The notes beneath the pieces were generated by a model that saw only the letters and a program-made list of their open reading frames with translations, did not search any database and was not told the DNA's origin. A program made the position numbers and the translations under genes. 40,819 nt of DNA from a virus, in IMG/VR virus record IMGVR_UViG_3300020182_000073, positions 1-40,819 of that record. One strand, written 5' to 3'. Below are positions 9,401 to 28,981 of the stretch, piece by piece (the stretch's first letter is position 1; each line of letters opens with the position of its first letter).

Positions 9401-12400
9401 ATACTAAAGTTTCTGCCGTCACGGTTGACAATATAGTTGTTTGGTTCTATAATAGCTTTATTGTTATCGTAAATTCTACTACCGTATGGGCGATTGCTAA
9501 TACTATCAACTGCACCTCGTACACTTCTAAAGTTTAATGTACTTCCAATTGGACTAAGACTAACACTGATGCCCTGATCCCATCCTTGTTGTGCCCAGAA
9601 TATAAATTCTTTTGCAGCAAGTTTCCAATTGTGCACTTCGTTTGAACCTTCAACTCGATTGTCAAATTTAAAGCCTTGGTTTTCAAGAAATCTACCGTAT
9701 CCTATTAAAAATTCAACTACATTTTCAACACTGTTTAATTCAGATCCGTATGCAAGAACAACATTCTCGTTGGTGCCAGTTGCAGATACTTCTACTGCGG
9801 TATTACCAACTTTAATAACTTGAGTATCACTGTTTTTACTTGCTACATTAACAATAAATGTTGGATCATTTAAATCATATCCACTAACTGTAAATCCGTT
9901 TGCACTTCTAGTAACAATAACACCACTGTAAACAACACTTTGTCTAGGACTACTTTTAAAAAGTTTAATATCGTAATCATCATCAGGAATTAAAATGCTA
10001 CTGTTGATACTATTAGGGCTACTCTGTTCAGCAAAGAACTTCAAAAACTTTTTATCTGTATATCCAGATGCTTTATAACTTAAACGCAATTGAATATTTC
10101 TAAGTTTATCACCAATAGCGTCTGTAATATTATAATTTAAACTGTTAGCGTATTCTGCAAGCCATGTTGTGTATCCGTTTGTTCTAGCAATAGTACCGTC
10201 AGTGTTTAATTCGCCATGTACTTGTTCAATTTTAGTTCTAGTACCAGTACTATTAAACTGCCACTGATTATTTTTAATAACTTGATCGTTTGTATCTCTG
10301 TACAATCCAAAATATTCTGCAGGTATTGAAAGTGCTAGTGCAATCTGAACTGCAAACGGATATTCACTACTGTGCTTCCATGCTGTTTCTACTGGATTGC
10401 CATCGCCGTACTTCCAGCTGCCATTTACAACATTACTGTTATTAACACTTAAACATTCATACGGGCTCAGCAATTCGCCGCTGTCATCGACCGGAATAAT
10501 GTCGCTTAACCCAGGTCTTTTGTAAACACTATCTATTGTAATGTTTCCTGGTTGTGCAATTTTACCTGCTTCAAGATCGTCCCATAATACTTTGTTGCCG
10601 CTGGTGTAAGGTGCGGGACCGTATACTTCTTCCCACCAAGTTGGTTTTGTTGTTTGCCCGAGCATTTCCCAAGGTCTTAGATTAGGTTGTTCTGTATCAT
10701 AAAAATGATTGTAAATACCTCTCCAGTATGCTGCTGGCATTGATTTACCAGTTAGTTTTTCATCAAATAATCTATAGTTCCAACTAAATTTGTCAAGACT
10801 CGAAACTTCAACAGTATCATTGATTTTAACATTGTTTTTGCCTAGCCAGCGACTAAAGTTCTGTGCAATAATATTATCAAACTCTGTTTTGCTATATGCT
10901 GTTTTTCTAAATGCGCCAGGAATATAACTATCAATATTGATTAAATCCTTATTGTAAGTTACTTTAACATTGTTATAAATGCGCTTTTCAAGTTCAAGAA
11001 TAATATTGTCTCTGAAATCTCCAAGCATTGCAATTTTGCTACCGTCGTGGCCTCTAATTACCTGATGTGTATTGTCTCCATATCCGTCAATAATAATCTC
11101 TGGTGAAAATAAAGGATACATTCCAAGTTTACTTGGAGTTGGCGGAATATGAAACCCATCTGTGCTGGTGTATTCTCTGATTTCTAGTTTATCGTCAATG
11201 TTTACTTCCAAGAATCTCATTGAGCTAGTGTCACCAGCAGGTCTAATTTTTAGTGTAATAACTATTCCGTCAATTGTATAATCTAGATTTTTAACTAATT
11301 GAGTACCGTTTAAGAAAACTAATACTGCACGATTGCTTGGAATTTTATCGTTGAATGTTTGGCTCAGGTAGTAAGTATCAATTTCAGTATTGTTTATTTC
11401 ATATGAAATTTCATTGTAGTCATTGCCTGACGGACACATATCGCTATGATAAAACGGGAACATCTCGTTTTTATTTGCAAACATTTCAGTTAACAACTCA
11501 TCTAAAGATGTACTAGAATCTGTTACATCAGTGTAACTTATTTCGCCGAGCATTCTATAAAATTTATTTTTAAATGTTTCGTATTCTCTTTGATTGTAAA
11601 GCAAACTTTCAATGAAATTTGCTTGAACATCATTTAAGAAAAGATTTGCCAAATGCGGAGCGCCTGCATTCTGAAGAATAGTACCGCCATTTAATTTAAC
11701 ATCTTTAAGATCTTTACTGTTGTTTAAACCTTGATAATTCCCGGACAAATCAGGAGTTTTTACAAATGTTTCAATGATGTGATTTCTCATCTGTCCGAGT
11801 GTAATTTCTACAATGTCAACATTTTTAGCATTATTCTCAAGGTTACTTGGAATTTCCCAATTATTGTTTTTACTAACTGTACTACTATAAATTTTTACAC
11901 TAATTTTATCAGTAGATTTTAAATCTTTAACAAAAACTAGACTGCCTACACCTCGTTCGACTTCAACATCGTATGTAGATTTGTCTATTGGTGTGTTGTT
12001 TTTATAAACAATAAGATGTGTTGGCGAAAGACTTTCTGGAATAATATCTAATTTAAATCTATTGGTTTGAGTTTCAGTTGCAAAAATAGTTTGTGTTTGG
12101 TATTGTTTACTCTTTTCAGATTTTTTACTCCATTGATTAATGTACTCAACTGTACCATCGGTGTTGTTTTTTCTTACTTTAAGACCTTTTGTTGTTGCAG
12201 TAATTGTATTTTCGTTGCTATCTTCATATACAAAGGTATCGTCATTGATAGAATCGCAGAAAACAATATCACCTACATTGTTAATACTTCTATAGCTTAA
12301 AGGAAATCCTAACTCAGTGTCGTTAGCTCCTGTGCCTTTTTTGTATCCAAAAAGTTTTGAGCCAAGGAAATTGCTTGCTTTATATGCCGAAGTATCACTA

Positions 12401-14972: not shown

Positions 14973-17900
14973 TTAATTACTTGTGTATCCGCCGGACACT
15001 ACGCTACTTGATGGTGCTTTTAATTGATTGCCTGTGATATTTTTAACTATTTTAATATCGTCGACTGTTGCACTACTGATAAAGATTTCGTTAGGCTCAC
15101 TAACAATTTGGAACAAATCACCAAATGTTTTTGAACTAGCATTCGGTACAATAACAATACTGCCAATTTCCTGAATCATACTCTTATGAATAAAACTAGA
15201 AAGTTCGCTAAAGTAAAATGTGTTTCCAAAATCCCAATTTTCAATGTTAAAGTATTCATTGATATACTTTATAACTTTACTCTTAATCTCACTATTACTT
15301 AGCCTTGTTCTTTCTGCTGGTACAACTTTAAAAGTTGCCTGGAATTCAGGTGCAGCTTTGGCTCCAAAAATAATTTTATAATTAGCAGCATTAAATGTAA
15401 TACTGTCACTGACACTTTTTAATTTGTTAAGTTCGCTGTACGCTACTTCCATTTCAAGTAACGTTGGTTTTTCAGGTTCAATTAATGTACCACTTGAATC
15501 ATTAATCCAATTTCTATATTCATTATTATATGCTTCAGTTAAAACATACATATCAATAATATTACTTTTACTTGGATCAATTCTGCGGTCGTTTGGAGCA
15601 TTGTGTCTGTACTGGAATTTTAGTTTATCTCTACCAACATAACACTGATAGTTGTTACTAGCTACAATTGTTCTTTTATTGTTAACCAGTGTTAACTCGT
15701 AAAAATCGTTATTAACTTCAAATACTGTACCTAACGGATGTGCATATCTACCTTCGAGATTTAAAGTAGCAACATCAGTATATCTTGATACAACTTTATT
15801 GCTATCAAAGTAACGATATCTTTCAAAGTTATCATAATCGATATATTTCTCAAAATAAACTTTTTCTTCGCTATCTGCGATAACGTCAAAAACTTCTGGG
15901 TTGTCGGGTATGCCATCGTTGTCTTTGTCGCCATGTGTAACTTTAACACGAGTGTCATCTCTATAACCATCAACATATTTTACAGTATCGTAAATTTCCA
16001 ATACTAATTGATTATCTAATAATGTACTACTGTTAGGAAGAGTATTCCCAGTTAAAATTCTAATCTGATCTTTAACTACTGTAGCATTTCTACTATCATA
16101 TACTCTTACTTTGCTATCAAAATAAAAGCGAGTTTCAATTTCGCTTCCCCAAAGCAATTCAGTATTTCTGTACGTTGTAGTATATCTTCCGCTGCCGACA
16201 TTTGTCATCAATACATGCCAGCTTGCATCTAAATTATTGCCACTTGTATCACCAGCATAAACAATGCTAAATTCACCAGTTGTTGCAATATCATTTGGGT
16301 TAATAATTTTCCAAAAGCCAGACTGGTAATCGAAACGCAGTCCAAAATCTTCATTATTGATAATTTTTCTTGTTAGTGTTTGACTTAGATTAATATCAAT
16401 GTTGTTTACATAAACTGCATAAATTTCTTCTAGTACTGCGCCATTTGGAATGTTTTCAGTTAGTACAATTGGACCCGGACCACTAGTTCCACTCAAGTAA
16501 CCATTGCCGTTTGAACTACCGTCGCCACTAATACTTTTAATACTTGCCCAAATTTTAGTTGCCTGACCTTCTTTAGTTGGAGTGCCAGTTGTTAACACTC
16601 TGTCAATATCAAAAAATTTCCCAGCAGGAGCAACAAACTTACAAACAACACCCGGCTTTAGATATTGTCTTTCCCCTTGGCCGCTTTCTCCAACTTGATG
16701 TACATAGTTACTTAAAGTATCATCATTGTAACCTTCAAAAAAACCGCTGCTGGTGCTGCTATCTGCACTGCCTCTTTTCCATGTAGTATTCGAAAAACTA
16801 ATTTTAGGATATTTGTCAAAATAAAGATTAACACTTCCTTTACTTCTTAGTATTGAACTAAGTGTATTAACTACAAAGTTCTGTACATCTGCTGCCGTTA
16901 GCCAATTAAAATTATCAGTTTCTTTGATATCATTTTTATAAACATACCCATCTTCGCAGAAAATATTTGTACTACTGTACTTGCCTGTTACATCTTTAAG
17001 TTCTAAGAATCTACTAATACCAGTACTGGTTCTATTAACACTTTTTATTTTTAAAATATCGCCGAATTTAATATAAGGGAGTGTGTTATAGTCTTCACCA
17101 TTAACCATTCTGTTTTGTGTATAGAAATTCTGAGGTGCTTTTACTTTAATATCAGTTAAACTTTCTCTTGTACTAGCATTGTTTACTGTATACTGAAGGT
17201 TTAGTGTAAAGTTAAGTTTTTCCTGTTTGCCGTATTTGTTGACATAAATCATTTCAACGACAATGTTTTCCATTTCTCTCGGACTAATAGTATAACTAGT
17301 TCCGTTGCTTGTGCGTACCACACTTCTGAACTGACCAACTGGAATTTTACTAAACACACCATCGCCAAAAATTAAATCAATTTGATCATTTGCACGGCTG
17401 TAAACTTCAAAAATCTTTCTATTGTTTTCGCTGATATCATTGTAGATTACGTTACTATCTCTGAGAACATCTACTTTAGTCCATTCATCAAGATATTCGC
17501 CTTGGTCGTTGGTTTCAAAAAGCCAAACATCATTATTATTGATATTGTCTACGTTTATACCTGCTAATCTATTTGGCAAACTTTCTGAAATTCTAAAGTC
17601 TAAATTGTTAATACGCCCTTGTTTAAATCCTAAAAAGAATCCAGTATTAGAACTACCGTTGCCTTCGCCGCTGTTTTTATACACAAAGCCAAGAGTACTA
17701 CCAGCAACTGGTGCTTTTTCATATAATCCTGTTTTACTATCTAAGCCAACATTGTAAATGTTAAACGGAAGGTTTTGGTTGTCAATTGAAGCACTAAAAT
17801 TAATTATCGGAACAAGATTATTTCTTGTTTTAAAATCATATAAATCATGTCTAACTGTGCCAATTTGTAAACTACTATTTGGTTTACCAATACGTTGATT

Positions 17901-18398
17901 GTTTGCTAGTGCAGCGTTAATAATACTTGTAAATTGCTCAAGCCAATCGAGGTTTGTTGGATCGTTCCATTTAATTGTTTTATTTGCTAAATCAACCCCA
18001 TTGCTATCAAAAATGCTTTCAGTAGTACTGATTGCAGTCATCTTTAACATGCCACTACTGCTGTTATTTCTATTAGGAGAATACCCTAACATATTTGCTA
18101 AACGATATACACTATCTCTACGTTCAGCAGTTTGTAAAAAGTTTTCTCTACTGTTTAAGTCGTTGCGATAACTAATACTTTGTCCCATAAAACTGATTAA
18201 GTCTAGTAGTGCAACAAATTCACTACTTTCTATGTAATCGTTAAAATCTTCTGGGTAGTATGTTCTGATATAATCAACCATGCTTTTTCGCAGAGTTTCG
18301 TAATCATAACTTTGAAAGTCAGCACTGCGAAAAGTTGTGTATAACTTTTTCCAATCTTCAGCAGCAAAAAGATTATTTTGGCGTATAAATGTCGACAT
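14973..18398 (-). CDS. gp6: Baseplate wedge protein gp6
   Basis: The 1141-residue product has the gp6 N-terminal signature: an LFAAEDWKKLYTTFRSADF-type opening, then YPEDFNDYIESSEF, LLDLISFMGQSISYRNDLN and ANMLGYSPNRN. In T4, gp6 dimers form the wedge ring of the baseplate and join with gp25 and gp53. The protein is about 1.7 times the length of T4 gp6 (about 660 aa); marine T4-like gp6 proteins also tend to be long, and the extra length lies in the middle. ATG at 18398 is preceded by AGAGGAAATAAT, a good ribosome binding site, and by a late-promoter-like octamer at 18417-18424. It sits between gp25 and the giant gene on the same strand, with only 14 bases separating it from the giant gene. 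Confidence 0.93.
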   Translation of the reverse strand: MSTFIRQNNLFAAEDWKKLYTTFRSADFQSYDYETLRKSMVDYIRTYYPEDFNDYIESSEFVALLDLISFMGQSISYRNDLNSRENFLQTAERRDSVYRLANMLGYSPNRNNSSSGMLKMTAISTTESIFDSNGVDLANKTIKWNDPTNLDWLEQFTSIINAALANNQRIGKPNSSLQIGTVRHDLYDFKTRNNLVPIINFSASIDNQNLPFNIYNVGLDSKTGLYEKAPVAGSTLGFVYKNSGEGNGSSNTGFFLGFKQGRINNLDFRISESLPNRLAGINVDNINNNDVWLFETNDQGEYLDEWTKVDVLRDSNVIYNDISENNRKIFEVYSRANDQIDLIFGDGVFSKIPVGQFRSVVRTSNGTSYTISPREMENIVVEMIYVNKYGKQEKLNFTLNLQYTVNNASTRESLTDIKVKAPQNFYTQNRMVNGEDYNTLPYIKFGDILKIKSVNRTSTGISRFLELKDVTGKYSSTNIFCEDGYVYKNDIKETDNFNWLTAADVQNFVVNTLSSILRSKGSVNLYFDKYPKISFSNTTWKRGSADSSTSSGFFEGYNDDTLSNYVHQVGESGQGERQYLKPGVVCKFVAPAGKFFDIDRVLTTGTPTKEGQATKIWASIKSISGDGSSNGNGYLSGTSGPGPIVLTENIPNGAVLEEIYAVYVNNIDINLSQTLTRKIINNEDFGLRFDYQSGFWKIINPNDIATTGEFSIVYAGDTSGNNLDASWHVLMTNVGSGRYTTTYRNTELLWGSEIETRFYFDSKVRVYDSRNATVVKDQIRILTGNTLPNSSTLLDNQLVLEIYDTVKYVDGYRDDTRVKVTHGDKDNDGIPDNPEVFDVIADSEEKVYFEKYIDYDNFERYRYFDSNKVVSRYTDVATLNLEGRYAHPLGTVFEVNNDFYELTLVNNKRTIVASNNYQCYVGRDKLKFQYRHNAPNDRRIDPSKSNIIDMYVLTEAYNNEYRNWINDSSGTLIEPEKPTLLEMEVAYSELNKLKSVSDSITFNAANYKIIFGAKAAPEFQATFKVVPAERTRLSNSEIKSKVIKYINEYFNIENWDFGNTFYFSELSSFIHKSMIQEIGSIVIVPNASSKTFGDLFQIVSEPNEIFISSATVDDIKIVKNITGNQLKAPSSSVVSGGYTSN

Positions 18399-18445: not shown

Positions 18446-18823
18446 TTAAGATGAATAAGCAACTTTACTGGTTTGATCAAACATAAATCTCATAGTATCA
18501 GCTTCGTTTGTGTTTTTGTATCTAAGTCTGATTTCAATGATTATGCCACGTTGATATTCATCTACTAGTATATTGTCAACAATTACTCTAGGTTCATAAG
18601 TAACTACACGAGTTACATCTTCAATAATAGCATCCTTAATTTCTTCAGTCATTGGCTCGAATAAAATTTCCCAAATAATAGTACCAAAATTTGGATTCAT
18701 TAGTTTTTCGCCTCGACGAATATTAAAGTGATTTGAAAGATCACGCTTAATTAACTCAAAATCTTCAAGTCGAGTTTTGGTTGACTTATTGTCAATTGTG
18801 TTGTAACCTCTGTATAGTGCCAT
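18446..18823 (-). CDS. gp25: Baseplate wedge protein gp25
   Basis: The 125-residue protein matches the gp25/GPW family in size (T4 gp25 is 132 aa) and motif order: an N-terminal polar segment, RRGEKLMNPNFGTIIWEILFEP, a helix, then TYEPRVIVDNI and a C-terminal IEIRLRYKN strand. gp25 bridges wedge and inner baseplate and is shared by all contractile injection machines. The frame stays open upstream to 18880, but MALYRGYN at 18823 fits the family length, and the longer version would run into the divergent glutaredoxin start. No clear ribosome binding site precedes ATG 18823; instead a GATAAATA octamer lies five bases upstream (18829-18836), so the late transcript may be leaderless or nearly so. 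Confidence 0.9.
   Translation of the reverse strand: MALYRGYNTIDNKSTKTRLEDFELIKRDLSNHFNIRRGEKLMNPNFGTIIWEILFEPMTEEIKDAIIEDVTRVVTYEPRVIVDNILVDEYQRGIIIEIRLRYKNTNEADTMRFMFDQTSKVAYSS
18789..18818 (+). promoter_or_regulatory. Possible sigma70-like promoter for the glutaredoxin cluster
   Basis: TTGTCA (18789-18794), an 18-base spacer and TATAGT (18813-18818) each match the bacterial consensus at five of six positions. The predicted start is about 40 bases before the glutaredoxin ATG. It lies inside the start of gp25 on the other strand. AT-rich DNA gives many chance matches, so this is weak. Confidence 0.3.
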
Positions 18824-18828
18824 ACTAT

Positions 18829-18836
18829 TATTTATC
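18829..18836 (-). promoter_or_regulatory. Probable late promoter for gp25 (GATAAATA)
   Basis: GATAAATA on the minus strand is the same variant seen at 30080-30087 and 39514-39521. Only five bases separate it from ATG 18823, so transcription would begin about at the start codon. Confidence 0.5.
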
Positions 18837-18863
18837 AGCAACTTTAAAGGGATATATAAAGAT

Positions 18864-19115
18864 ATGAAAACGTTATACATTTATACTAAAAACGGGTGTC
18901 CCGAATGCGACAGTGCCAAAAAATATATAAGCAACTTGGGTATTGCTTATACTGAAATAAACACAGATCGCGAAAGATGGGCACGTGATTGGTTAGCAAG
19001 TGAAGGTCATCAAACGTTTCCTATATTTTACGCAGACGAAGACGTTTTTATGCGTGGTAGCTGGCGTATAGTTGGAACTATGACACAACAAGAAATTTTC
19101 AGTCGACTAAAATAA
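18864..19115 (+). CDS. Glutaredoxin-like protein (83 aa)
   Basis: This small thioredoxin-fold protein has the redox motif C12-P-E-C15 after an N-terminal YIYTKNG strand, the cis-proline motif TFPIFY and a C-terminal helix. Such proteins reduce disulfides, classically in ribonucleotide reductase (T4 NrdC is the phage precedent). The size is normal for a minimal glutaredoxin. AAAGGG precedes the ATG at 18864 by an unusually long 12-base spacing. It is the first gene of a three-gene plus-strand block with PAAR and a large structural protein, surrounded by minus-strand baseplate genes, so expression with tail proteins seems likely. A role in protecting or maturing virion cysteines is possible but is inference; nucleotide metabolism is the alternative. 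Confidence 0.88.
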   Translation: MKTLYIYTKNGCPECDSAKKYISNLGIAYTEINTDRERWARDWLASEGHQTFPIFYADEDVFMRGSWRIVGTMTQQEIFSRLK

Positions 19116-19165: not shown

Positions 19166-19426
19166 GTGCCGGGTATTATCAGAAAAAACGACAAAAACGT
19201 TCGCAATCAACCTGCGTTAGTTGGTGCTGAAAATTTTAAAATAGAAGATAAAAATGCTATTGTAAAGAATGACCCAGTGGGAAATGAAACATCTTATGTA
19301 AAAACAACCAGTAGTTCTAGAAATTTTATTGTAAATGGAAAACCAGTTACATTAATCGGCGATGCGGATACAAACAATGTAACAAGACGGACCGGTAGCA
19401 ATACGTTTATTGTAGGAAAAAGTTAA
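19166..19426 (+). CDS. PAAR-like spike-tip protein
   Basis: The 86-residue protein begins with GTG (19166) preceded by AAGGA, and ends immediately before the next ATG. It has the layout of PAAR proteins: short N-terminal strands with GIIRKND, then NFIVNGKPVTLIGD and a final GSNTFIVGKS. PAAR proteins form a small cone that sharpens the gp5 beta-helical spike (T4 gp5.4 is 97 aa). The classical metal-binding His/Cys set is not evident, so the fold may lack the usual zinc site or be a divergent member. Its position beside the 1055-residue structural gene and near gp5 supports the assignment. Confidence 0.65.
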   Translation: MPGIIRKNDKNVRNQPALVGAENFKIEDKNAIVKNDPVGNETSYVKTTSSSRNFIVNGKPVTLIGDADTNNVTRRTGSNTFIVGKS

Positions 19427-22400
19427 ATGTCAGCAAGTAATAGAAGTTACCTAGGACCTCGCGATAATGGTGTAATTTTTGCCAATGGAAGTCTTCGCGG
19501 AACTAGCACATATAGTGTTAGCACAGATCCTGCAGATGTGCCTAGACAACAAATTATTGATGCAGTTGATCATGCCAGTGAAATACTTCCGTTAAATTGG
19601 GTAGTACAAATCAATCCTGGAGGCGGAACCAATGCTGCTGAAAGTATGAGCAAACAACCGAATGGTTGGGCATTAGATTTGCAGCTCATTGGCAGTAACG
19701 GAACACTATATACACCAAGCTCTGCTCCGAGTGAATATATCAGTTTAATAAGTGCATTAGTTGGAAATGCATTATTAGATAATAAACATATAGGCATTGG
19801 GATGTATAGCTGGGGTATACATTTTGATCTTAGTCCTGCAAGACAAACTGGCTTTGGTGATGTAACTGTATGGAATTCAAATAATACTAGTGACAGTGGT
19901 ATTAACGAAGGTAGACAACGTGCTGAAAAGAAACAGCGCAGTGTTGCTACAAATATATTTGCAGATGGCACAGCTGACAGTAAAACTGACCCTATGGCAT
20001 ATCTTAGTTCAACTGACACTGAACTTGAATCGTTAACACAAATAAGAAAAATAAACGAACCTAATGCTAGTAGTTTTTCTGGACAACAATTAAACGGTGC
20101 CACTATTAGTAGTTTAGCCAGTCTCAGAGGCAATAACGGTATTGCAATTAACACAGAACTGTCAGATGCTATCAATGTATACGAATCTAGCGCATACCCA
20201 AGTGTATGGAAAAGCGTACTCGAAAAACTAGATACAGGAGACTTTTCTCCAAGTAATACCCCAAGTGGTTCTTGGCCAAGTTCAATGACTACATTGAGTA
20301 CTAGCGTAATTGAATCTGTTACAGGCTCCCATCTTTCTAGCGATCATTATTTTTTAACTGGCAAGTTGCTGGATTTTACAAGAACAAATATTACACATAT
20401 TTCTGCCACAGATAAAATTCTTAGTGATGTAATTGAAAGTGTTGCAAATGATATTCTTGGCGCAGGCACACTTAATAAGTTTGCAAATACATTTTTAAAC
20501 ACCGTTAGTGCTACTCAAAGTAGTACTAACTTCGGTTTAGCGTTGCAACAACTTGAAGGTCAAGTTTTTGGTAAAACTAAAGCCACACAAGAAAATCCTT
20601 ATAGTAGTATTCCCGGCATGGAATACAACAGTTTAGCAGGAAGTAAGATCATTGATTTAATTGGCGATCCTGAAGAAAAACTTAAACAGGTAGTAGACAC
20701 CGATTCTGTATTTAATACATTTGGAAGTTTGTACAAAGACTACAACGGATTAACAACGCTTGGGTTCGGATCATTGAGTAGCAATTTAGCTCTGCTTGGC
20801 AACGACTTCAATACACTTGGAAGAATAATAAATTTCCAAGATTTAATTAGAATGGGAAAGCCAGGGCAAATACTAGAAAAGATATTACTCAGTGATTGTG
20901 CAGTTGTTAGTGAATTAATGCCTGCACTAAACAGTCTTGGAATAAATCTAAGTAATGCAAATACCAAAGCAAATGATAATACTGCCTTAAAAGCACTAAC
21001 CGAAATTCAATCACCAGCAATAATACAAGGAGTATTTGATTGTTTTGATATACAAAGAAACATTCCAAAACATCTAGGAAAACTTTGTGACCCGGAATGG
21101 CAATTTGCAAAAAGTTACGACTATAATAATTTTAAAAATCTAAACGAAATTAGTGTACATTTAATTACTATGGGTATTACTAACATTAGTACCGCTGCAG
21201 AGTTTGGAAACATTTTAATTAATATTGAAAGTGTAACACAAGATGATGCACTTAGTGGACAAAATGGTACAATCACCGGAGACGAAATTGCAGACCTGAG
21301 AAGTGCATATAGTCCTCTTAGCGATTACAGCGGCGATAACAATTTAACAGTCGGTGACTTTTTAGGAACAGCAGCAGGATACAGACACAGCAAACTTCTG
21401 CCAATTTTAGCCAATGAAGTCAATCGAGTTGCTGCTACCAGCAATGGTATTGCTTATAAAAGTCTACTAGACAATTTACTAACTATGCTCAATGGCGGAT
21501 ACACAGTCGAAGAAGGATCCGGTCCTTACACTTATGCAATACGTTATAATAGTACTGATTACTCCACTTTAGACAATGCTGTTACCTATCTACTAGGAGA
21601 ACTCATAACTTCATTTACTGGAGTCGAAAGCGAGCTAACTAGTCCAATGCTAAATCGCTATCAAAGTTATCAAACAGAAATATTACATCAACTTTACAAA
21701 GAACTACAACTAAGAACAGACTACGGGATAACCATTGGCAGTGGTGTTTCTGGCTCCAATGATGATATATTGAATTTTACATTAAGTTTAGAGGATGCAG
21801 CGTTAATCACTGGACATGGCAGACAAGCCGACTTTATATATCGTGTAACAAGTACAGACTATCACGGCGGAAGAATTCGCAGCACCATGGCACAAAGTAG
21901 AAATAGAAATTTCTTAGATGGACAAAAAGTTAAATTAGAACATCAAAATACCGTTCTAAATGATGTTGCACTAGAAAAAATTAACTACATGAGTGATTTT
22001 GTAAAAACAACCGGAATTTGGAGTGCAGATGCAGACAGAAGTAGCGAAATTTATCTACAACTAAATCACAGAGTTAAAAATCGCTATGAATATACACTAA
22101 GACAAATAAAACAAAATCAAACTCAAATGCAAAATATCATTGATACAAACTGTGTTAATATACTAAGACAGTTGATGTTTGTGTCAAACAACAACGTAGC
22201 TGTGACTGCCAAATTCACAGGACTTTATAATCAATTTAGTGCATATTATAATAGCATGCACTCGCCGGTACAACATGGATATTTAAAAGTAAACCTAAAT
22301 AGTGCTTATACCACAAACGGTTATGTACTAGGTCCATTGGAAGAAATTGTTAGAGAACTAGGCAACTTTGAAAGAATGCCAAATAATTATATTGGCGCAG

Positions 22401-22594
22401 ATATTTCAGAAAAAACACAAAAATATATCAGCGCATTAGGGCTAGATATGAAAACAATAATTGGATTAACACACAAAATATTATTAGTTAATTCAGCACA
22501 CTATCTTGGTATCGATACTGTAGATTTTGTTGACTTATTTGGTACACCAAGTGTAAGCAGGTACTTGCTTACAATAGTTGCATTAGATGTTTAA
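19427..22594 (+). CDS. Large virion structural protein (1055 aa) with a degenerate M15-like N-terminal domain
   Basis: The frame starts at ATG 19427, abutting the PAAR stop codon. Residues about 58-138 resemble the peptidase domain of the neighbouring gp5: S-K-Q77-P-N-G-W-A-L-D84, then GIGMYSWGIH132FD against SSRHDDGYAAD and GIHVD in gp5. The first zinc ligand histidine is replaced by Q77, so the domain is probably inactive and may bind rather than cut peptidoglycan. The remaining 900 residues are rich in predicted helix and have no motif I recognise beyond a Gly/Asp-rich QNGTITGDEI segment near residue 620. Marine T4-like phages often carry a long structural protein (sometimes called VrlC-like) beside PAAR; that link is from memory and uncertain. 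Its stop codon overlaps the stop of gp5 on the other strand. Confidence 0.65.
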   Translation: MSASNRSYLGPRDNGVIFANGSLRGTSTYSVSTDPADVPRQQIIDAVDHASEILPLNWVVQINPGGGTNAAESMSKQPNGWALDLQLIGSNGTLYTPSSAPSEYISLISALVGNALLDNKHIGIGMYSWGIHFDLSPARQTGFGDVTVWNSNNTSDSGINEGRQRAEKKQRSVATNIFADGTADSKTDPMAYLSSTDTELESLTQIRKINEPNASSFSGQQLNGATISSLASLRGNNGIAINTELSDAINVYESSAYPSVWKSVLEKLDTGDFSPSNTPSGSWPSSMTTLSTSVIESVTGSHLSSDHYFLTGKLLDFTRTNITHISATDKILSDVIESVANDILGAGTLNKFANTFLNTVSATQSSTNFGLALQQLEGQVFGKTKATQENPYSSIPGMEYNSLAGSKIIDLIGDPEEKLKQVVDTDSVFNTFGSLYKDYNGLTTLGFGSLSSNLALLGNDFNTLGRIINFQDLIRMGKPGQILEKILLSDCAVVSELMPALNSLGINLSNANTKANDNTALKALTEIQSPAIIQGVFDCFDIQRNIPKHLGKLCDPEWQFAKSYDYNNFKNLNEISVHLITMGITNISTAAEFGNILINIESVTQDDALSGQNGTITGDEIADLRSAYSPLSDYSGDNNLTVGDFLGTAAGYRHSKLLPILANEVNRVAATSNGIAYKSLLDNLLTMLNGGYTVEEGSGPYTYAIRYNSTDYSTLDNAVTYLLGELITSFTGVESELTSPMLNRYQSYQTEILHQLYKELQLRTDYGITIGSGVSGSNDDILNFTLSLEDAALITGHGRQADFIYRVTSTDYHGGRIRSTMAQSRNRNFLDGQKVKLEHQNTVLNDVALEKINYMSDFVKTTGIWSADADRSSEIYLQLNHRVKNRYEYTLRQIKQNQTQMQNIIDTNCVNILRQLMFVSNNNVAVTAKFTGLYNQFSAYYNSMHSPVQHGYLKVNLNSAYTTNGYVLGPLEEIVRELGNFERMPNNYIGADISEKTQKYISALGLDMKTIIGLTHKILLVNSAHYLGIDTVDFVDLFGTPSVSRYLLTIVALDV
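22552..22573. terminator. Hairpin at the convergent gene junction, possible terminator
   Basis: TGTAAGCA (22552-22559), six loop bases and TGCTTACA (22566-22573) form a perfect 8-bp stem just before the two overlapping stop codons at 22591-22594. There is no strong T-run on either side, so termination is plausible only from its position between convergent genes. Confidence 0.35.
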
Positions 22595-25500
22595 CCTGAC
22601 TGTTTGTCATAATAATCATTAATACTACCAACAGTTATTCTGCCATCTCTTCCTCGCCAAACTTGGTTTTGCTGCCAAGCCTTACTGCCAACTTTATATA
22701 CTTCGTAGTTGTCTGGTTTGTCAGCATGTGCTGGTGCAGCTTGCATGATACCTAGACGTCCGCCTGCATAGTTAAACTTACTAAGATAATAATCGTACAA
22801 TTCAAGTTGTTCGCCACCAGTCATGTTTTGTATTGTATTAACATTTGTTCCTAGCCACTTAGCAGTACTTGGCATAAACTGAAATAGCCCTGTTGCATTT
22901 GTATTAGGATTAACTGCTCGAGTATTAAACGAACTTTCCCCTGACGCTACATTAAGTATTTGTTCTTCACTGAATTTACTGCCATACTTTTTTTTCATTT
23001 TTTCAATTGTTTTTGCCCACAATGGATCTTTTTTCAAATTTGCTGGAGTTACAATATTTTTACCCGATCCTAAATGAGGTTGTCCACCATTATCCCCGGA
23101 TGTTGTTGTTCCATTGCTCAGACCATTATCTGAGTTGGTATTACCGCCAGTTCCAGGAGTGCCTGCTTGTGATTTTTCTGTTACTGTGCCACATGTTTCG
23201 CAACCATATAATGGACCGTTTACAGCACCCAGGCCAGGAACTATACTGCTAACCGGATTAAATCCGGTTATGCTAGAAATTGCATCAGCTGCTAAATTAC
23301 CTGCAGCTACTAAATTACCTGTATTACTTATATTAGTCAATCTGCCTGCAGTTACAGTTTCACTTAGTTGTAAATTGTTACTTTTTCCTGTAGGAAGGAA
23401 TTTATCAACTCCGCCTAATACATTAATACTTTTAATTTTATCTAAGACACCAGCTCTGTTTAACACCGATCCAATGCTATCTATGTCTTTAATTGCAGAT
23501 AAACTAGTACCTGCTAAATTAGGAATAACATCTCTTGCACCTTGTAGTATATTACTAGATGCATTATCTAAAATTGATCCGTTGATTACTTTTGTGGCCA
23601 TTTGCAGCAAAACTGGACTTTGTACTAAGTCTTGAATACTTCTAACATCGTCAATAAGTGTTAGTGCTGCACCAATTTGTTGTAAACTTCGAGTGCTTAT
23701 GCTCGATCTAATTAATTTTAGTTCGTCGCTGTTTAGTATACCTAGTGTATTAACAATATCTTTATCCAATTGATCAACATTGCCAGATACTTTACTAGAA
23801 ACATCAAATAATTTTTGAGCGCTATTTGTAATATTTTTAAATGTCGGGCGAGATCCTGCAATTCCTGTATCTGAATGTGCAGTTCTGACTACATCACTGA
23901 ATCCGCTAAATCCGCCAAACTTGCTGTTTTTTGTTTCTTTTACATCTGCAATATTAGTAGGTGATTTAAGTTGTGAACCGCTAACATTTGTGCTATTATT
24001 AGCAACGACTGTAACATTTCGAGAATTAGAATAAGCATCTTTAACCCATTGTGGAGCGTTGTCTGCTTTCCCTCCTGCACCCCAAATTGAGGAACCTTTT
24101 GCAGTTCCCCAAAGATCTACGTGAATACCTGAATTTCCCATATACCCAGGACCGGCGCCGATTCCTTTTGCTCCTGCTGCTACACAAGCACTAATAAAGT
24201 CGCTTACTAGTTGACTATTTGTTTTAGTACTTAATGCTGTAGTGCTTGAATTATAAATCCATACGTCTGCTGCATATCCGTCGTCGTGTCTAGATGATCC
24301 AGTTCTTCTAGCATTAGGCGTTCCTTCTGCATCTTGCCCTCCTGAAAAAATAACTACATCTACTCCAATTTGACTTGCGGCAGTTCTTAATACATTCATG
24401 AGTTTTGGCTGAATTTTTTTGTTTCGTGTTTGATCTTCAAATGATTGACCTGGAGGTCCTTCTAAGTAAGTGACGCTTCCTCCTCCTGATCCGGTGCCGG
24501 TGATTGTGCGAGTGTTAGTTTCATCATCTTTAAAACCTTGCGGTGGTTGCACTGGAACCATATCTTCGTGACTTTCGTCAGGTAGAAGACTTGCGGGATC
24601 ATGTCCAGCGTACGGTTCTACTGTTGGAGTACGAGTTGTTGTTGTAGTGTATCCACCTGTTTCGACACTGTCTGTTTTAAACATCTGGTCAGGTTCAGAC
24701 ACGCTACCAGTGTTCCATAGAAACTTATCACCACGCAATTTATGTTGACTTGCTTTAATATTAACATCTTTTAAACTTCTAATTTTAATATCGCTACAAC
24801 AATGAATATCTAAGCTAACTGGACTGGTTAAATTAATATTGTTTCCCCAGAGACTTACTAGTTGATTACCCTGTAGTCTAGTAGTGTTTCCACTCTGTAT
24901 ATTAGCATTATTTTCAGCATGCATATTAATATCTGCCTGGGCATGCATATTAATACTTCCGTTTGTTGCAAAATTTATTCCGGCTTTAGCAAAAACATCT
25001 AAATGTCCGCTTGCACTTAATTCCATCCATCCGGTGCCGTCTGCATTAATAATGTAAATAAAACCGTCATCGTCATTCATGGTAATCTGATTGCCAGAGC
25101 TACTTCTTAATCTGATATGTCTACTGCCGCCGTCTTCGTTTCCATCATCCATTACAAAACTATTACCGCCGGGAGTATTAAACCCAAAAACCCTACTTGG
25201 AGATTCTCTTAAACTAGTACTGCTAATAGGTCCACGTTGCGGATCTTTAAACAATCCTTGCTCCGCAAACTGAAATGCTTTACTATGCTGAGGTCTTTCA
25301 CGATCAGCAATCGGAGTATTAGGATCGTTATAATAGTCAAAATCTCCCCGATCATTTGCTGGAATACTTCCGTGCGAGCCAATTTCTGGCAGACATCCAA
25401 TCCACACCCCTTTGCTACGGTCTCCGTTGATAAACAATACCAAGACTTTAATACCAACATCTGGAGGCTGCATCCACATACCATAACTTTCAAGTTTGCT

Positions 25501-25746
25501 GCTAGCTTCTCCTGCAACTGTGTTGCTCATTGGTTGAATACCATAAAAAGGTGTCATGTATCTGCACAACAACCAATTACTGCTATCCTTAGGATCTCCA
25601 CCAAAATCTGGAATATAAACCGATATTCTTCCACTTAGTTGACTGTCAACATTTTGCATAACTTCTGCCAGATACGGGCCGCTATCTTTTGCAATACCAG
25701 TATTATTAGAATTTGATTTAGCATTTTGTGGTGTATAGGTATTCAT
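22591..25746 (-). CDS. gp5: Baseplate spike protein gp5 with M15-like peptidase and SLT transglycosylase domains (1051 aa)
   Basis: Residues about 20-130 form the gp5/VgrG OB-fold (YLAEVMQNVDSQLSGRI, YGMWMQPPDVGIKVLVLF). Residues 190-345 carry the beta-helix repeat style (INMHAQADINMHAENNANI). The T4-type lysozyme insert is absent. Instead, residues 435-575 resemble an M15 peptidase (SSRH487DDGYAAD494, GIH542VD), and residues 905-1051 are a lytic transglycosylase SLT domain (ASGE937SSF, ATGLFQFMPSTAKWLG). Residues 600-890 are a helical linker ending in a low-complexity Gly/Asn/Thr stretch. Both enzymes would cut peptidoglycan during tail penetration: peptide stem and glycan strand respectively. 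T4 gp5 is 575 aa, so this is nearly twice as long. The ATG follows AAAGGA. It is the last gene of the minus hub block. Confidence 0.88.
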   Translation of the reverse strand: MNTYTPQNAKSNSNNTGIAKDSGPYLAEVMQNVDSQLSGRISVYIPDFGGDPKDSSNWLLCRYMTPFYGIQPMSNTVAGEASSKLESYGMWMQPPDVGIKVLVLFINGDRSKGVWIGCLPEIGSHGSIPANDRGDFDYYNDPNTPIADRERPQHSKAFQFAEQGLFKDPQRGPISSTSLRESPSRVFGFNTPGGNSFVMDDGNEDGGSRHIRLRSSSGNQITMNDDDGFIYIINADGTGWMELSASGHLDVFAKAGINFATNGSINMHAQADINMHAENNANIQSGNTTRLQGNQLVSLWGNNINLTSPVSLDIHCCSDIKIRSLKDVNIKASQHKLRGDKFLWNTGSVSEPDQMFKTDSVETGGYTTTTTRTPTVEPYAGHDPASLLPDESHEDMVPVQPPQGFKDDETNTRTITGTGSGGGSVTYLEGPPGQSFEDQTRNKKIQPKLMNVLRTAASQIGVDVVIFSGGQDAEGTPNARRTGSSRHDDGYAADVWIYNSSTTALSTKTNSQLVSDFISACVAAGAKGIGAGPGYMGNSGIHVDLWGTAKGSSIWGAGGKADNAPQWVKDAYSNSRNVTVVANNSTNVSGSQLKSPTNIADVKETKNSKFGGFSGFSDVVRTAHSDTGIAGSRPTFKNITNSAQKLFDVSSKVSGNVDQLDKDIVNTLGILNSDELKLIRSSISTRSLQQIGAALTLIDDVRSIQDLVQSPVLLQMATKVINGSILDNASSNILQGARDVIPNLAGTSLSAIKDIDSIGSVLNRAGVLDKIKSINVLGGVDKFLPTGKSNNLQLSETVTAGRLTNISNTGNLVAAGNLAADAISSITGFNPVSSIVPGLGAVNGPLYGCETCGTVTEKSQAGTPGTGGNTNSDNGLSNGTTTSGDNGGQPHLGSGKNIVTPANLKKDPLWAKTIEKMKKKYGSKFSEEQILNVASGESSFNTRAVNPNTNATGLFQFMPSTAKWLGTNVNTIQNMTGGEQLELYDYYLSKFNYAGGRLGIMQAAPAHADKPDNYEVYKVGSKAWQQNQVWRGRDGRITVGSINDYYDKQSG
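23250..23270. repeat. 9-bp perfect hairpin inside gp5
   Basis: TAACCGGAT, a three-base loop TAA and ATCCGGTTA form a compact hairpin in the linker between the peptidase and transglycosylase domains of gp5 (around residues 826-832). It may be an mRNA structure or chance. Confidence 0.6.
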
Positions 25747-25759
25747 ATATTAATTTCCT

Positions 25760-28678
25760 TTATTGCGGACCTGGGCGGTTTGGGATTTGGGAGTCATCAA
25801 CAGACGCTCCAATATCCATATATGCACTAATTTGTGCTGTTTCATCAACAAATTCTTTTTTAGTAATATTTGGAATATTCGTCGGATCGTTACTGACTTG
25901 ATTTTGCACACGTATCATTGCTAATTGTTGTGTAAATTGTCCATTTTCAAAAATACTTTCAACACTAATTACTCTATATAACCCTTGTATGAAAGTTTGA
26001 TCTGTTGTCATTTGCATTAAGCCAGTTTCGCTGTTGTAATCTCGCGGAGTTTTAAATTTTATCATAACAAAGACGGCGTGATTATCAGTTGCAATACTAT
26101 TATTTACATTAAGAGAATCGCCAGCTTGTGTGCGACCTCTCGGAAGTACACTATTATCCTGCGGTATCCAGTCTGGATCGCCAATAATATTTAATCTTAA
26201 CGTAATCATATCTGCGCCAGGGTTGTTTAATATATTATCCATGTTATCGCTAGCCAACTGATGTCCGTAACTGCGAGAAGTGTTAACAAGTGAATTAGAA
26301 TCGCTACCTGTTTTAGTGTAAACTGCTGGACTGTACGCTTGATCGCCAGCTTGTGTTCTAGTAAGCCCGTCGTCTGGCATATCTGTAATTGTTGTTTTAC
26401 CGCTTGGTACTCCGTTTACTTTCCCGTGCTCGTCAGTAAAAACAGTTTTTGTTATAAAATATTGTAAATTGTATTCAGCATCAAAATCAAGTATATCTTT
26501 ATTTTGACCGGTAAAGATCCAGTCGTACTGTTTCTGCCAGCCTCGTTGTGTCGGCTTGCCTTGTGGCATTCCGGGTACAACATACCCGTATTGTTTTTCA
26601 GTTTGTATCTTAAAGAAATACTTTTTGGTATACTTTTTTGTACTAGTGTTGTACTTGCCAAGTTCTTCAATCATTGGAACTACTTTAAGAATTCTTACTG
26701 GACGATCTTGGTTGCCAGGTTCACTTTCTGCTGCTCCGGTTGTGTTGAATTTTGCACCAAAATCAGTTGCTTCTGCTAGTTTTTGTATTGCACTTTTTAT
26801 AGTACTACCTGCAGGAATTTGAACTACTTCTTTAAGTTGAGCAGCTTCGTCTAAGCTTCTTCTTGCAGCTTCAACTGTTCTCGCTGTATCTTTGTTATAT
26901 CCTACCTGACTATCTTTGAGATCAGAATCAAATATTGCAAAATCGTATTGGTCTTTTTCCCTGTTTTGTTGTATAGATTTTGCTTCTTCGCTTTTGTTTA
27001 GATGGTCAAAAAACTCTTTTAATAATTCTTCAAATGTATTACCAGTAACACTAAAGTTTTCCTGGACAAAACTCATATGTTGATCTTGCAAAGGACTATG
27101 TGCAAAAGGAACAGCCGTAATAGTATAAATTGTGGCGCCGCTGTTAATTTTAAATTGCATGTTTATAATTTTTACTGGAATATATTTAGGAGGTGCACCC
27201 GGAATGCTAGTATATGGATTTCCCTGACTATCGTATCCGCTGAATTTAATTTCTAACAAATACGGAATTTCAAAATGATCTGGCAAACCTATTCTACTAG
27301 CATACTGAATTAATTCACTCATAAATGCAACACCGTACGGCTCGACAATATCAAATGTAATATTAAAATTATTACTAGCTTTAGTACTAGAACTATTTTG
27401 AGAAATAATACTTAAAAAACGTAAATTCTCAATGTGATAATCTTTTCCTTCTCCCAATACACCTTTAGTTCCTGTGCCGCCACTTTTTACTATTAAGTGA
27501 CTAAGTTCTCTGCCAGGATTTGTTATTGCACCGTTCTCTAATATACTTGTATGCAAGTTTGGTGTTAACATATATAATCCTAGATTGTAGGTCCAATTGG
27601 CATAATTATGTAGCACATTTGGTTTTTGTTCAATTTGAGGATTATTTTTTTCGTAACTGCCTATTTGTCCAATATCATTGGATCGTCTGATGTTTCCTGA
27701 ATTTAAAACATCAACAGAATTGCCATTGTTTCTATATCCGCTATCATATGGAGCTGAATTTCTTGGATCAAGATCAACAGGTTCGTCTGATCTTAAAGAA
27801 GGCGAAGTTGGTGATTGTATATTACCAGACTGCGGATTATCACCAGGCAATCTAATTTCATCATACCCGCTATCGTCGAGGTTATTGCTGTTAAATGTTG
27901 AAAGTCGCCCAAAGTTTTTGTTTACCGGAGAAGAGTTCGGATCCTCATCAAAACTTATTGCGTCATTATTTCGCACTGGCGGTCCAGGTACAAAAAGGCC
28001 GTCCGGTCCGATCCCAGTGCTGTTAGTATCGTTGGTATTAGAATCAAAAACACCAGTGCTGTTAGTATCGTTGGTATTAGAATCAAAAACACCTGTACTG
28101 GAATTAAATCCGCCGGGGTTTTCGTCATATCTAGGAAGATCTGCAGATAAAATATCTCCACCTGGGTTTGATACATTTGGAGGAGACAACGGCAATAGCA
28201 TCGGAGTACCTTCGCCTGGAACCCAATCGCTAGGCTTTCCTGCGTTTTGCCAGTTGTTATAATCTGTTGTGTTAAGAAATTCGTTTGGAACTGGCATGCT
28301 TGGTGCAGTGTTGCTTAATGCAGTGCCTTCAAATACTTCGTTAGCAACAGTGGTATTAAGTCCAGCAACATAGAAATCTTGTCCGCCTATATCAATTTTT
28401 AACGGTGCATTTTCTTGTTGAGGTGGTGGTGGCGGGCTGCCAAAATCAACATAATCATATTTTGCAGCAATAATTAATGCTTGTTTTTCCATCATTCCGT
28501 ATGTTACATACGGACCGTAGTCCTTGCCTGATTCAGGATCGATGTCTCGAGGAGTATTAGGATCTTCTCGCACAGACACATTCCATTGCTTTAATTCTAT
28601 ATTAGCACGTCTTAGCTCATCTGCCGCTGCTAATCTTTCAGCGTCAGTACTTTGATCATTGATCTGATTTCTAGCCAC
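25760..28678 (-). CDS. Baseplate hub protein, gp27-like (972 aa)
   Basis: The start is GTG at 28678 with AGGGA upstream, three bases after the gp53-type gene. Residues 80-340 are low-complexity Asn/Asp/Pro/Ser sequence, including PPPPPQQ and a duplicated 13-residue unit. Residues about 350-960 are folded: MLTPNLHTSI, FDIVEPYGVAFMSELIQYA, then YRVISVESIFENGQFTQQL near the end, a pattern of hub (gpD/gp27-type) proteins that carry the spike and tube. Position between gp53 and gp5 also fits gp27. T4 gp27 is only 391 aa, so the long disordered N-terminus is a difference. Family assignment is by position and general pattern rather than a firm motif. Confidence 0.6.
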   Translation of the reverse strand: MARNQINDQSTDAERLAAADELRRANIELKQWNVSVREDPNTPRDIDPESGKDYGPYVTYGMMEKQALIIAAKYDYVDFGSPPPPPQQENAPLKIDIGGQDFYVAGLNTTVANEVFEGTALSNTAPSMPVPNEFLNTTDYNNWQNAGKPSDWVPGEGTPMLLPLSPPNVSNPGGDILSADLPRYDENPGGFNSSTGVFDSNTNDTNSTGVFDSNTNDTNSTGIGPDGLFVPGPPVRNNDAISFDEDPNSSPVNKNFGRLSTFNSNNLDDSGYDEIRLPGDNPQSGNIQSPTSPSLRSDEPVDLDPRNSAPYDSGYRNNGNSVDVLNSGNIRRSNDIGQIGSYEKNNPQIEQKPNVLHNYANWTYNLGLYMLTPNLHTSILENGAITNPGRELSHLIVKSGGTGTKGVLGEGKDYHIENLRFLSIISQNSSSTKASNNFNITFDIVEPYGVAFMSELIQYASRIGLPDHFEIPYLLEIKFSGYDSQGNPYTSIPGAPPKYIPVKIINMQFKINSGATIYTITAVPFAHSPLQDQHMSFVQENFSVTGNTFEELLKEFFDHLNKSEEAKSIQQNREKDQYDFAIFDSDLKDSQVGYNKDTARTVEAARRSLDEAAQLKEVVQIPAGSTIKSAIQKLAEATDFGAKFNTTGAAESEPGNQDRPVRILKVVPMIEELGKYNTSTKKYTKKYFFKIQTEKQYGYVVPGMPQGKPTQRGWQKQYDWIFTGQNKDILDFDAEYNLQYFITKTVFTDEHGKVNGVPSGKTTITDMPDDGLTRTQAGDQAYSPAVYTKTGSDSNSLVNTSRSYGHQLASDNMDNILNNPGADMITLRLNIIGDPDWIPQDNSVLPRGRTQAGDSLNVNNSIATDNHAVFVMIKFKTPRDYNSETGLMQMTTDQTFIQGLYRVISVESIFENGQFTQQLAMIRVQNQVSNDPTNIPNITKKEFVDETAQISAYMDIGASVDDSQIPNRPGPQ
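28014..28091 (-). repeat. Perfect 39-bp tandem duplication in the hub gene
   Basis: Two identical 39-base copies lie at 28014-28052 and 28053-28091. They encode a duplicated 13-residue unit built around GVFDSNTNDTNST in the disordered N-terminal region. The perfect identity suggests a recent duplication; the frame is kept. Confidence 0.9.
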
Positions 28679-28681
28679 TGA

Positions 28682-28981
28682 TTAAATCCCTAGTTCTTTT
28701 TCTAGTGTTTGTTTTTTTGGAATGTATATTGTTGTGCCGCTTTGAAAATCAAAAATTGGATCTTCGATGATGTTTGGATTTCGTTGTGCAAAGACCCACC
28801 ATAATCCTGTATCGCCATAAAGATCGTATGCAAGTTTATCTGGCCTTAATGCATGTTGCGCAGTTATAGTGTATTTAGGATCATCGGGAAATTTTGTAAT
28901 AGTCCTGTCTGTCATTACATCTAAAGCACCTTGATTTATTGTAGTTGTTTTATAAGGACTACTTTGAGAATATATTGTCAT
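28682..28981 (-). CDS. gp53: Baseplate wedge protein gp53-like (LysM-type)
   Basis: The 99-residue protein has the gp53/LysM pattern: YTITAQHALRPDKLAYDLYG, then GLWWVFAQRNPNIIEDPIF and FQSGTTIYIP. In T4, gp53 (196 aa) links neighbouring wedges and binds gp25 and gp6; shorter LysM-like versions are common in other contractile phages. The ATG follows directly on the stop of the upstream gene (TTTAAATG), so translation is probably coupled, and three bases separate its stop from the hub gene. Confidence 0.8.
   Translation of the reverse strand: MTIYSQSSPYKTTTINQGALDVMTDRTITKFPDDPKYTITAQHALRPDKLAYDLYGDTGLWWVFAQRNPNIIEDPIFDFQSGTTIYIPKKQTLEKELGI

Follow-up and report, generated by a model that had tools for sequence, protein, structure and literature searches.

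A predicted M15-like peptidase and an SLT transglycosylase domain lie behind the beta-helix of a gp5-type spike from a jumbo-like phage

The gp5 protein of phage T4 is the textbook spike of contractile tails and carries a single lysozyme before its needle. In a 40.8-kb virus fragment (IMG/VR record IMGVR_UViG_3300020182_000073; its full 40,819 nucleotides are hereafter called the window), the gene at 22591..25746 on the minus strand had been described in a first-pass annotation as a gp5 spike with two different cell wall enzymes behind the beta-helix. This arrangement raises the question of whether the protein is a genuine tail spike, whether the two domains are the enzymes they were taken for, and what they would do beyond the tip of the needle.

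The gene is an intact open reading frame encoding 1051 aa plus stop, and the same architecture is present in loci L002-L004. Since L003, a contig of other metagenomes, repeats the identical gp5 layout at 95% protein identity (L004 is a near-identical copy of L003), the layout is no accident of assembly and a chimera as the source of the two-enzyme gp5 was ruled out. The gene occupies the place of a T4 gp5-type spike in a baseplate cluster, surrounded by genes for a gp6-like protein (14973-18398), gp25 (18446-18880) and gp53 (28682-28981) and neighboured by a hub-like virion protein (phrog_11190; 25760..28678, minus strand), and homologues of T4-type gp55, gp47 and gp46 are located beyond this cluster. 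No type VI secretion gene context was found around gp5 in the window; phage baseplate, gp55-, gp46- and gp47-like genes were found instead. The best phage-record relatives of the spike are gp5 proteins of jumbo phages, with identities of 39% to PA5oct (aa 1-285), 33% to Atu_ph07 and 28.8% to RaK2, and the gene order in these three phages resembles that of the window baseplate. The gene therefore most likely encodes the central gp5-type spike of a T4-related jumbo-like phage. A host search in bacterial genome contigs (genome_contigs) found no relative, and we infer a host of the Gram-negative type. Two further genes in the window deserve mention: a glutaredoxin gene (18864-19115, plus strand) lies within the baseplate cluster between gp25 and the PAAR-like gene described below, a similar ORF being kept in L179, and a 4838-aa ORF (442-14958, minus strand), probably for an exceptionally long tail or fibre protein, contains FG-GAP repeats, CBM_5_12 and a DUF2460-like stretch.

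The N-terminal part of the protein follows the order of a T4 gp5-type spike, an OB fold and then a beta-helix. Phage_base_V (Pfam) was matched N-terminally above cut-off (E 7.8e-6) and, together with the alignment of relatives, places the OB fold at aa ~23-125 (25372..25680, minus strand). The beta-helix at aa ~205-345 (24712..25134, minus strand) was delimited using a DUF2345 match at aa 245-334, which with an E-value of 2.4e-5 lies under the Pfam cut-off, and PDB profile matches to VgrG-like spikes; the protein also matches phrog_13211 (E 8e-34). T4 gp5 and the window gp5 share the OB fold, the beta-helix needle, the position at the baseplate hub and the presence of wall-cutting domain(s) on the spike. 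However, T4 gp5 has its only lysozyme, a GH24 domain, ahead of the helix, at which the protein ends, whereas in the window gp5 neither Pfam nor the alignment of relatives revealed a lysozyme between OB fold and helix, as had been claimed, and two domains follow the helix. Behind the helix we found the motif RTPTVEPYAGH (aa 372-382; 24601..24633, minus strand), which is conserved in the gp5 group in the family form RxPTHEPxxxH. Short gp5 members with this motif stop 16-73 residues past it and long members run on; this shared tip motif, newly seen here, marks the start of the gp5 extensions. It is followed by a flexible linker of low-complexity sequence (aa 383-434; 24445..24600, minus strand) that matched no Pfam family. 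In total, about 670-700 residues lie beyond the helix, close to the 700 first reported, and the spike as a whole would be a trimer.

The first of the two post-helix domains spans aa 435-575 (24022..24444, minus strand) and had been called an M15-like peptidase. A profile search with M15_3 (Pfam) was weak, with E-values of 0.2 for the whole protein and 0.017 for the domain alone, and the score of 15.7 bits lies below the gathering cut-off of 23.2. The fold and the zinc residues nevertheless support the assignment. The AlphaFold model of the domain (pLDDT 80.8, pTM 0.80) was used in Foldseek, and the 39 best PDB matches were all LAS/Hedgehog proteins, led by MepA (E 4.7e-4) and including Ply500, Hedgehog, LysECD7, ChiX and the L-Ala-D-Glu peptidases of T5 and RB49; the VIA Z-scores of 4.3-7.2 are moderate, a Z of 8 being strong by itself, and AlphaFold, Foldseek and VIA agree on an LAS/M15 fold. 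By domain search, 107 relatives were found in IMG/VR, the best 80 loci were retained and 39 sequences were aligned (the window gp5 and 38 relatives). The predicted zinc residues H487, D494 and H542, forming the triad H-x6-D ... H, are invariant in this alignment and hence present in all 38 relatives, as are an SxGQ motif, a Gly-Ala pair, a Tyr-Met pair and two Trp. In typical M15 enzymes such as VanX and Ply500, an acidic residue three positions N-terminal to the second zinc His acts as the base. Asp or Glu at this position is absent from the window gp5 and from nearly all aligned relatives, L087 having an Asp two residues before the second zinc His. Because the usual acidic base is missing, we named the domain M15-like and placed it in no M15 subfamily. 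Its dN/dS between the window and L003 is 0.20, indicating purifying selection. Judged from sequence and model, the domain is an LAS-fold relative of zinc peptidases and probably a peptide-cutting enzyme.

The second domain, at aa 905-1051 (22594..23034, minus strand), was clear-cut as an SLT domain, and the bounds originally given for both domains proved right. Pfam SLT was matched at aa 918-970 with an E-value of 2.7e-10 and 40.3 bits against a gathering cut-off of 21.3, and a profile of the domain and its relatives (A4) matched the solved lytic transglycosidase 9udh (E 4.8e-39). The catalytic Glu937 of the ES motif (E937-S938) and GLFQF, corresponding to GLxQF, are both present, and the Glu is invariant in A4. 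The third SLT motif is usually of the AYNxG type; the window gp5 has at this site an xxPAxAxK-type segment, which is common to the phage branch and was aligned to 9udh. We consider the domain a probable sugar-chain-cutting enzyme. Within the SLT segment (22600-23050), dS to L003 is 0.75, compared with 0.10-0.16 elsewhere in gp5, and nucleotide identity to L003 falls to 80-85%, while dN/dS is still 0.10. The simplest reading is that this segment was probably exchanged by recombination and is under purifying selection. The middle stretch between the two domains (aa 576-880; 23107..24021, minus strand) matched no family in a Pfam scan. Ahead of the SLT domain it contains the Cys pair CETC (aa 849-852; 23191-23202, minus strand), which reads CAIC in L179 and is possibly a metal or disulfide site.

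To compare domain order among related gp5 proteins, we took the best 80 loci matching the gp5 core and scanned 48 proteins with Pfam, namely the window gp5 and 47 relatives longer than 600 aa. Phage_lysozyme and SLT were each found in three proteins and VgrG3-like, Phage_lysozyme2, VanY and GDSL in one each, and most extensions of long gp5s were without a recognised enzyme. The gp5s of RaK2 and Vibrio phage 2.275.O carry M23 and then GH24 behind the helix. Among the more unusual members, the gp5 of Agrobacterium phage Atu_ph07 (L006:7905-10502) has at its end a protease domain of the trypsin/HtrA type (Trypsin_2, E 6.1e-17), which is unusual for a spike, and that of L130 (5571-8837) has SLT at aa 532-683, a middle domain and, by eye, a C-terminal VanY-type peptidase. 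The nearest gp5s outside the window lineage, L179 (51% over OB fold and helix) and L095, have SLT and no M15-like domain. The M15-like domain is therefore dispensable; either the window lineage acquired the module or L179 and L095 have lost it. Post-helix enzymes recur in the relatives, and the pairing of M15-like and SLT domains on one gp5, newly seen here, was found outside the window lineage in none of the best 80 gp5 relatives and 77 M15-bearing ORFs.

The M15-like domain itself recurs widely. The gp5 core profile was matched by 34 of the 77 M15-bearing ORFs tested, in which the domain is C-terminal. These gp5s include a jumbo type of 587-598 aa (L020, L039, L073) and a T4 type of about 554 aa (L027), both with the M15-like domain at the post-helix place it has in the window but without SLT, and a 759-aa form (L046-L048) in which OB fold and helix are separated by an additional insert, weakly GH24-like in L048; the gp5s of L042-L043 likewise have an extra insert at this position. 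The idea that the family is confined to gp5 had to be rejected, the domain being mobile (L054, L057 and others). In L054 (3733-6465) it ends a hub-like protein (phrog_11190) rather than gp5, and in L057 (5926-9708) it is N-terminal in a T7 gp16-like internal virion protein (phrog_342), where the profile aligns from position 161 and the M15-like domain takes the place of the annotated endolysin region. The proteins of L079, L080, L089 and L094 are similar to that of L057 in size and layout, the domain scan covering L057 alone. A tail-type protein of L066 (4906-7341) has the same pair outside gp5, M15-like at aa 366-500 followed directly by SLT-type at aa ~510-640, and tail proteins of Rhizobium phages have an M15-like domain beside a Phage_lysozyme2 domain. 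The position of L071 among structural-looking ORFs, together with the domain in L057, makes it less likely that the short M15-like proteins of 220-316 aa are mere lysis enzymes of the ordinary endolysin kind. What is newly seen in these data is the M15-like domain as a recurrent, proposed entry module.

Some of this layout has precedents. The gp5s of RaK2-type jumbo phages (CBB, RaK2) have a published peptidase and lysozyme behind the helix (PMC5259590), and since such proteins also recur here, the novelty of a two-enzyme gp5 is reduced: the observation is confirmed and its reading supported, and gp5s with wall enzymes beyond the tip are already known as a kind. RaK2-like gp5s share with the window gp5 the OB fold and beta-helix without a lysozyme between them, a peptidase plus a glycan-cutting enzyme beyond the helix and the baseplate gene order. 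However, their pair is M23 and GH24, neither of which was matched by Pfam in the window gp5, whose pair is M15-like and SLT, and the match between them is limited to the N-terminal ~340 aa. Hub protein gp15 of Anabaena phage A-1(L) carries peptidase and endoglucanase domains, both shown to act on cells (PMC10966104); there, the enzymes are other domains on a hub barrel protein, whereas those of the window are predicted enzymes behind the spike helix. Among the closest phage-record relatives of the SLT domain, at ~30% identity, are hub-cluster proteins of Synechococcus phages (S-MbCM6_010 and S-8S29, the latter pairing amidase with SLT), in which a protein other than gp5, encoded close to the hub genes, bears the SLT domain. 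The likeness to extended ('evolved') VgrG proteins noted at the outset also holds, in that an effector domain follows, on the same chain, the beta-helix of a spike resembling gp5, and one gp5 relative in our survey bears a VgrG3-like C-terminal domain; extended VgrGs kill rivals via type VI secretion, whereas the window gp5 belongs to a phage baseplate and has a proposed role in entry.

Collectively, we favour the interpretation, at a probability of roughly 0.8, that the protein is an entry device whose M15-like and SLT enzymes open the peptidoglycan after tail contraction. The needle would be formed by a trimeric OB collar and beta-helix, and past its tip each chain would continue through the flexible linker into the M15-like zinc peptidase, the middle stretch and the SLT domain. 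Sheath contraction would push the spike across the outer membrane into the periplasm, where the linker would let both domains, in three copies each on a trimeric spike, reach the peptidoglycan. The peptidase may then cleave stem peptides or their cross-links, and the transglycosylase the glycan strands, and the resulting hole would let the tube pass. Activity, bond specificity and timing are predicted here. This interpretation draws on baseplate synteny and gp5 profile matches, the SLT match above cut-off with its active-site motifs, the LAS/M15 fold with a conserved zinc triad, the recurrence of the M15-like domain on gp5s (34 of 77 ORFs) and other virion proteins, the M23 and GH24 domains behind the helix of RaK2 and Vibrio phage gp5s, and dN/dS values of 0.20 and 0.10 that point to purifying selection on the two domains. 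We counted against it the missing acidic base, the non-textbook third SLT motif, a PAAR match below cut-off and the lack of the M15-like domain in L179 and L095.

Two of these points would also suit a spike on which SLT alone works as an enzyme and the M15-like domain is a degenerate stem-binding fold positioning SLT on the peptidoglycan: the general-base position has no acidic residue across the M15-like family, the nearest gp5s retain SLT without the M15-like domain, and non-peptidase LAS folds do exist, with Hedgehog among the Foldseek and VIA matches. We regard this as unlikely, however, given that the zinc triad is invariant across 39 divergent sequences, that in L057 the domain takes the endolysin position in a protein like T7 gp16 and that it is the sole recognised enzyme on many gp5s. 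T4 gp5 itself undergoes cleavage during maturation, and long linkers could hold protease sites, so the post-helix part might be cleaved off in maturation or serve mainly in lysis, leaving the spike enzyme-free at entry. This is very improbable: the enzymes are fused to a structural spike inside the baseplate cluster, internal virion proteins with a role in entry contain similar modules, and CBB_240, the homologue in CBB, was detected in virions by mass spectrometry (PMC5259590). Least probable of all is that the domains are ballast or receptor contacts with a structural role and lost catalysis, as might be suggested by the absence of a recognised enzyme from the middle stretch and from most of the extensions on other long gp5s, but Glu937 and the zinc residues are intact, dN/dS is 0.10 and 0.20, and even the probably recombined SLT segment keeps its catalytic motifs.

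Judging by the window gp5 and related proteins, wall enzymes seem to be placed behind the tip and swapped in many T4-related jumbo phages, in parallel to the exchange of effectors on type VI secretion spikes. We tentatively propose, with slightly less than even confidence, that the gp5 tip is an exchangeable socket and the M15-like domain an undescribed mobile family of zinc peptidases for virion entry. RxPTHEPxxxH would then end the needle in T4-related jumbo phages and be followed by one, two or three wall enzymes (GH24, M23, M15-like, SLT, VanY, VgrG3-like or trypsin-like), and the M15-like family, without the acidic base, would move among gp5, the hub protein next to it and internal proteins like T7 gp16. 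If active, this family would provide a peptidase module for entry common to several virion types, and mutants of the zinc site and the catalytic Glu could address whether DNA entry needs both bond types to be cut.

The window gp5 also brings into sharper focus how a chain can run on beyond a tip that is capped by PAAR. A PAAR-like protein, the probable spike cap, is encoded at 19166..19426 (plus strand), as suggested by PF05488 (E 6.7e-5 to 4.9e-4, under cut-off), phrog_281 (E 2.1e-5) and synteny: the PAAR-like gene and the gene for a 1055-aa protein after it keep their position in L003 and L179, and the M15-bearing gp5 gene of L027 has a PAAR gene immediately after it. Cap and post-tip extension therefore probably coexist, and the geometry we envisage would have the three chains exiting beside the cap. 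The N-terminus (aa ~40-140) of the 1055-aa protein (19427-22594, plus strand) looks like an M15-like domain in degenerate form, where in the stretch SKQPNGWALDL ... GMYSWGIHFDL the zinc His is replaced and, in L179, the Asp too. A profile-profile comparison of this N-terminus with the M15-like family was colinear and not significant (E 0.09, probability 0.6%; an unrelated control pair gave E 0.27), and the AlphaFold model of the protein was unusable (pLDDT 32.5). The same gene contains islands of 69-86% identity to L003 at ~20200-20400 and ~21400-21800, against a background of 92-100%.
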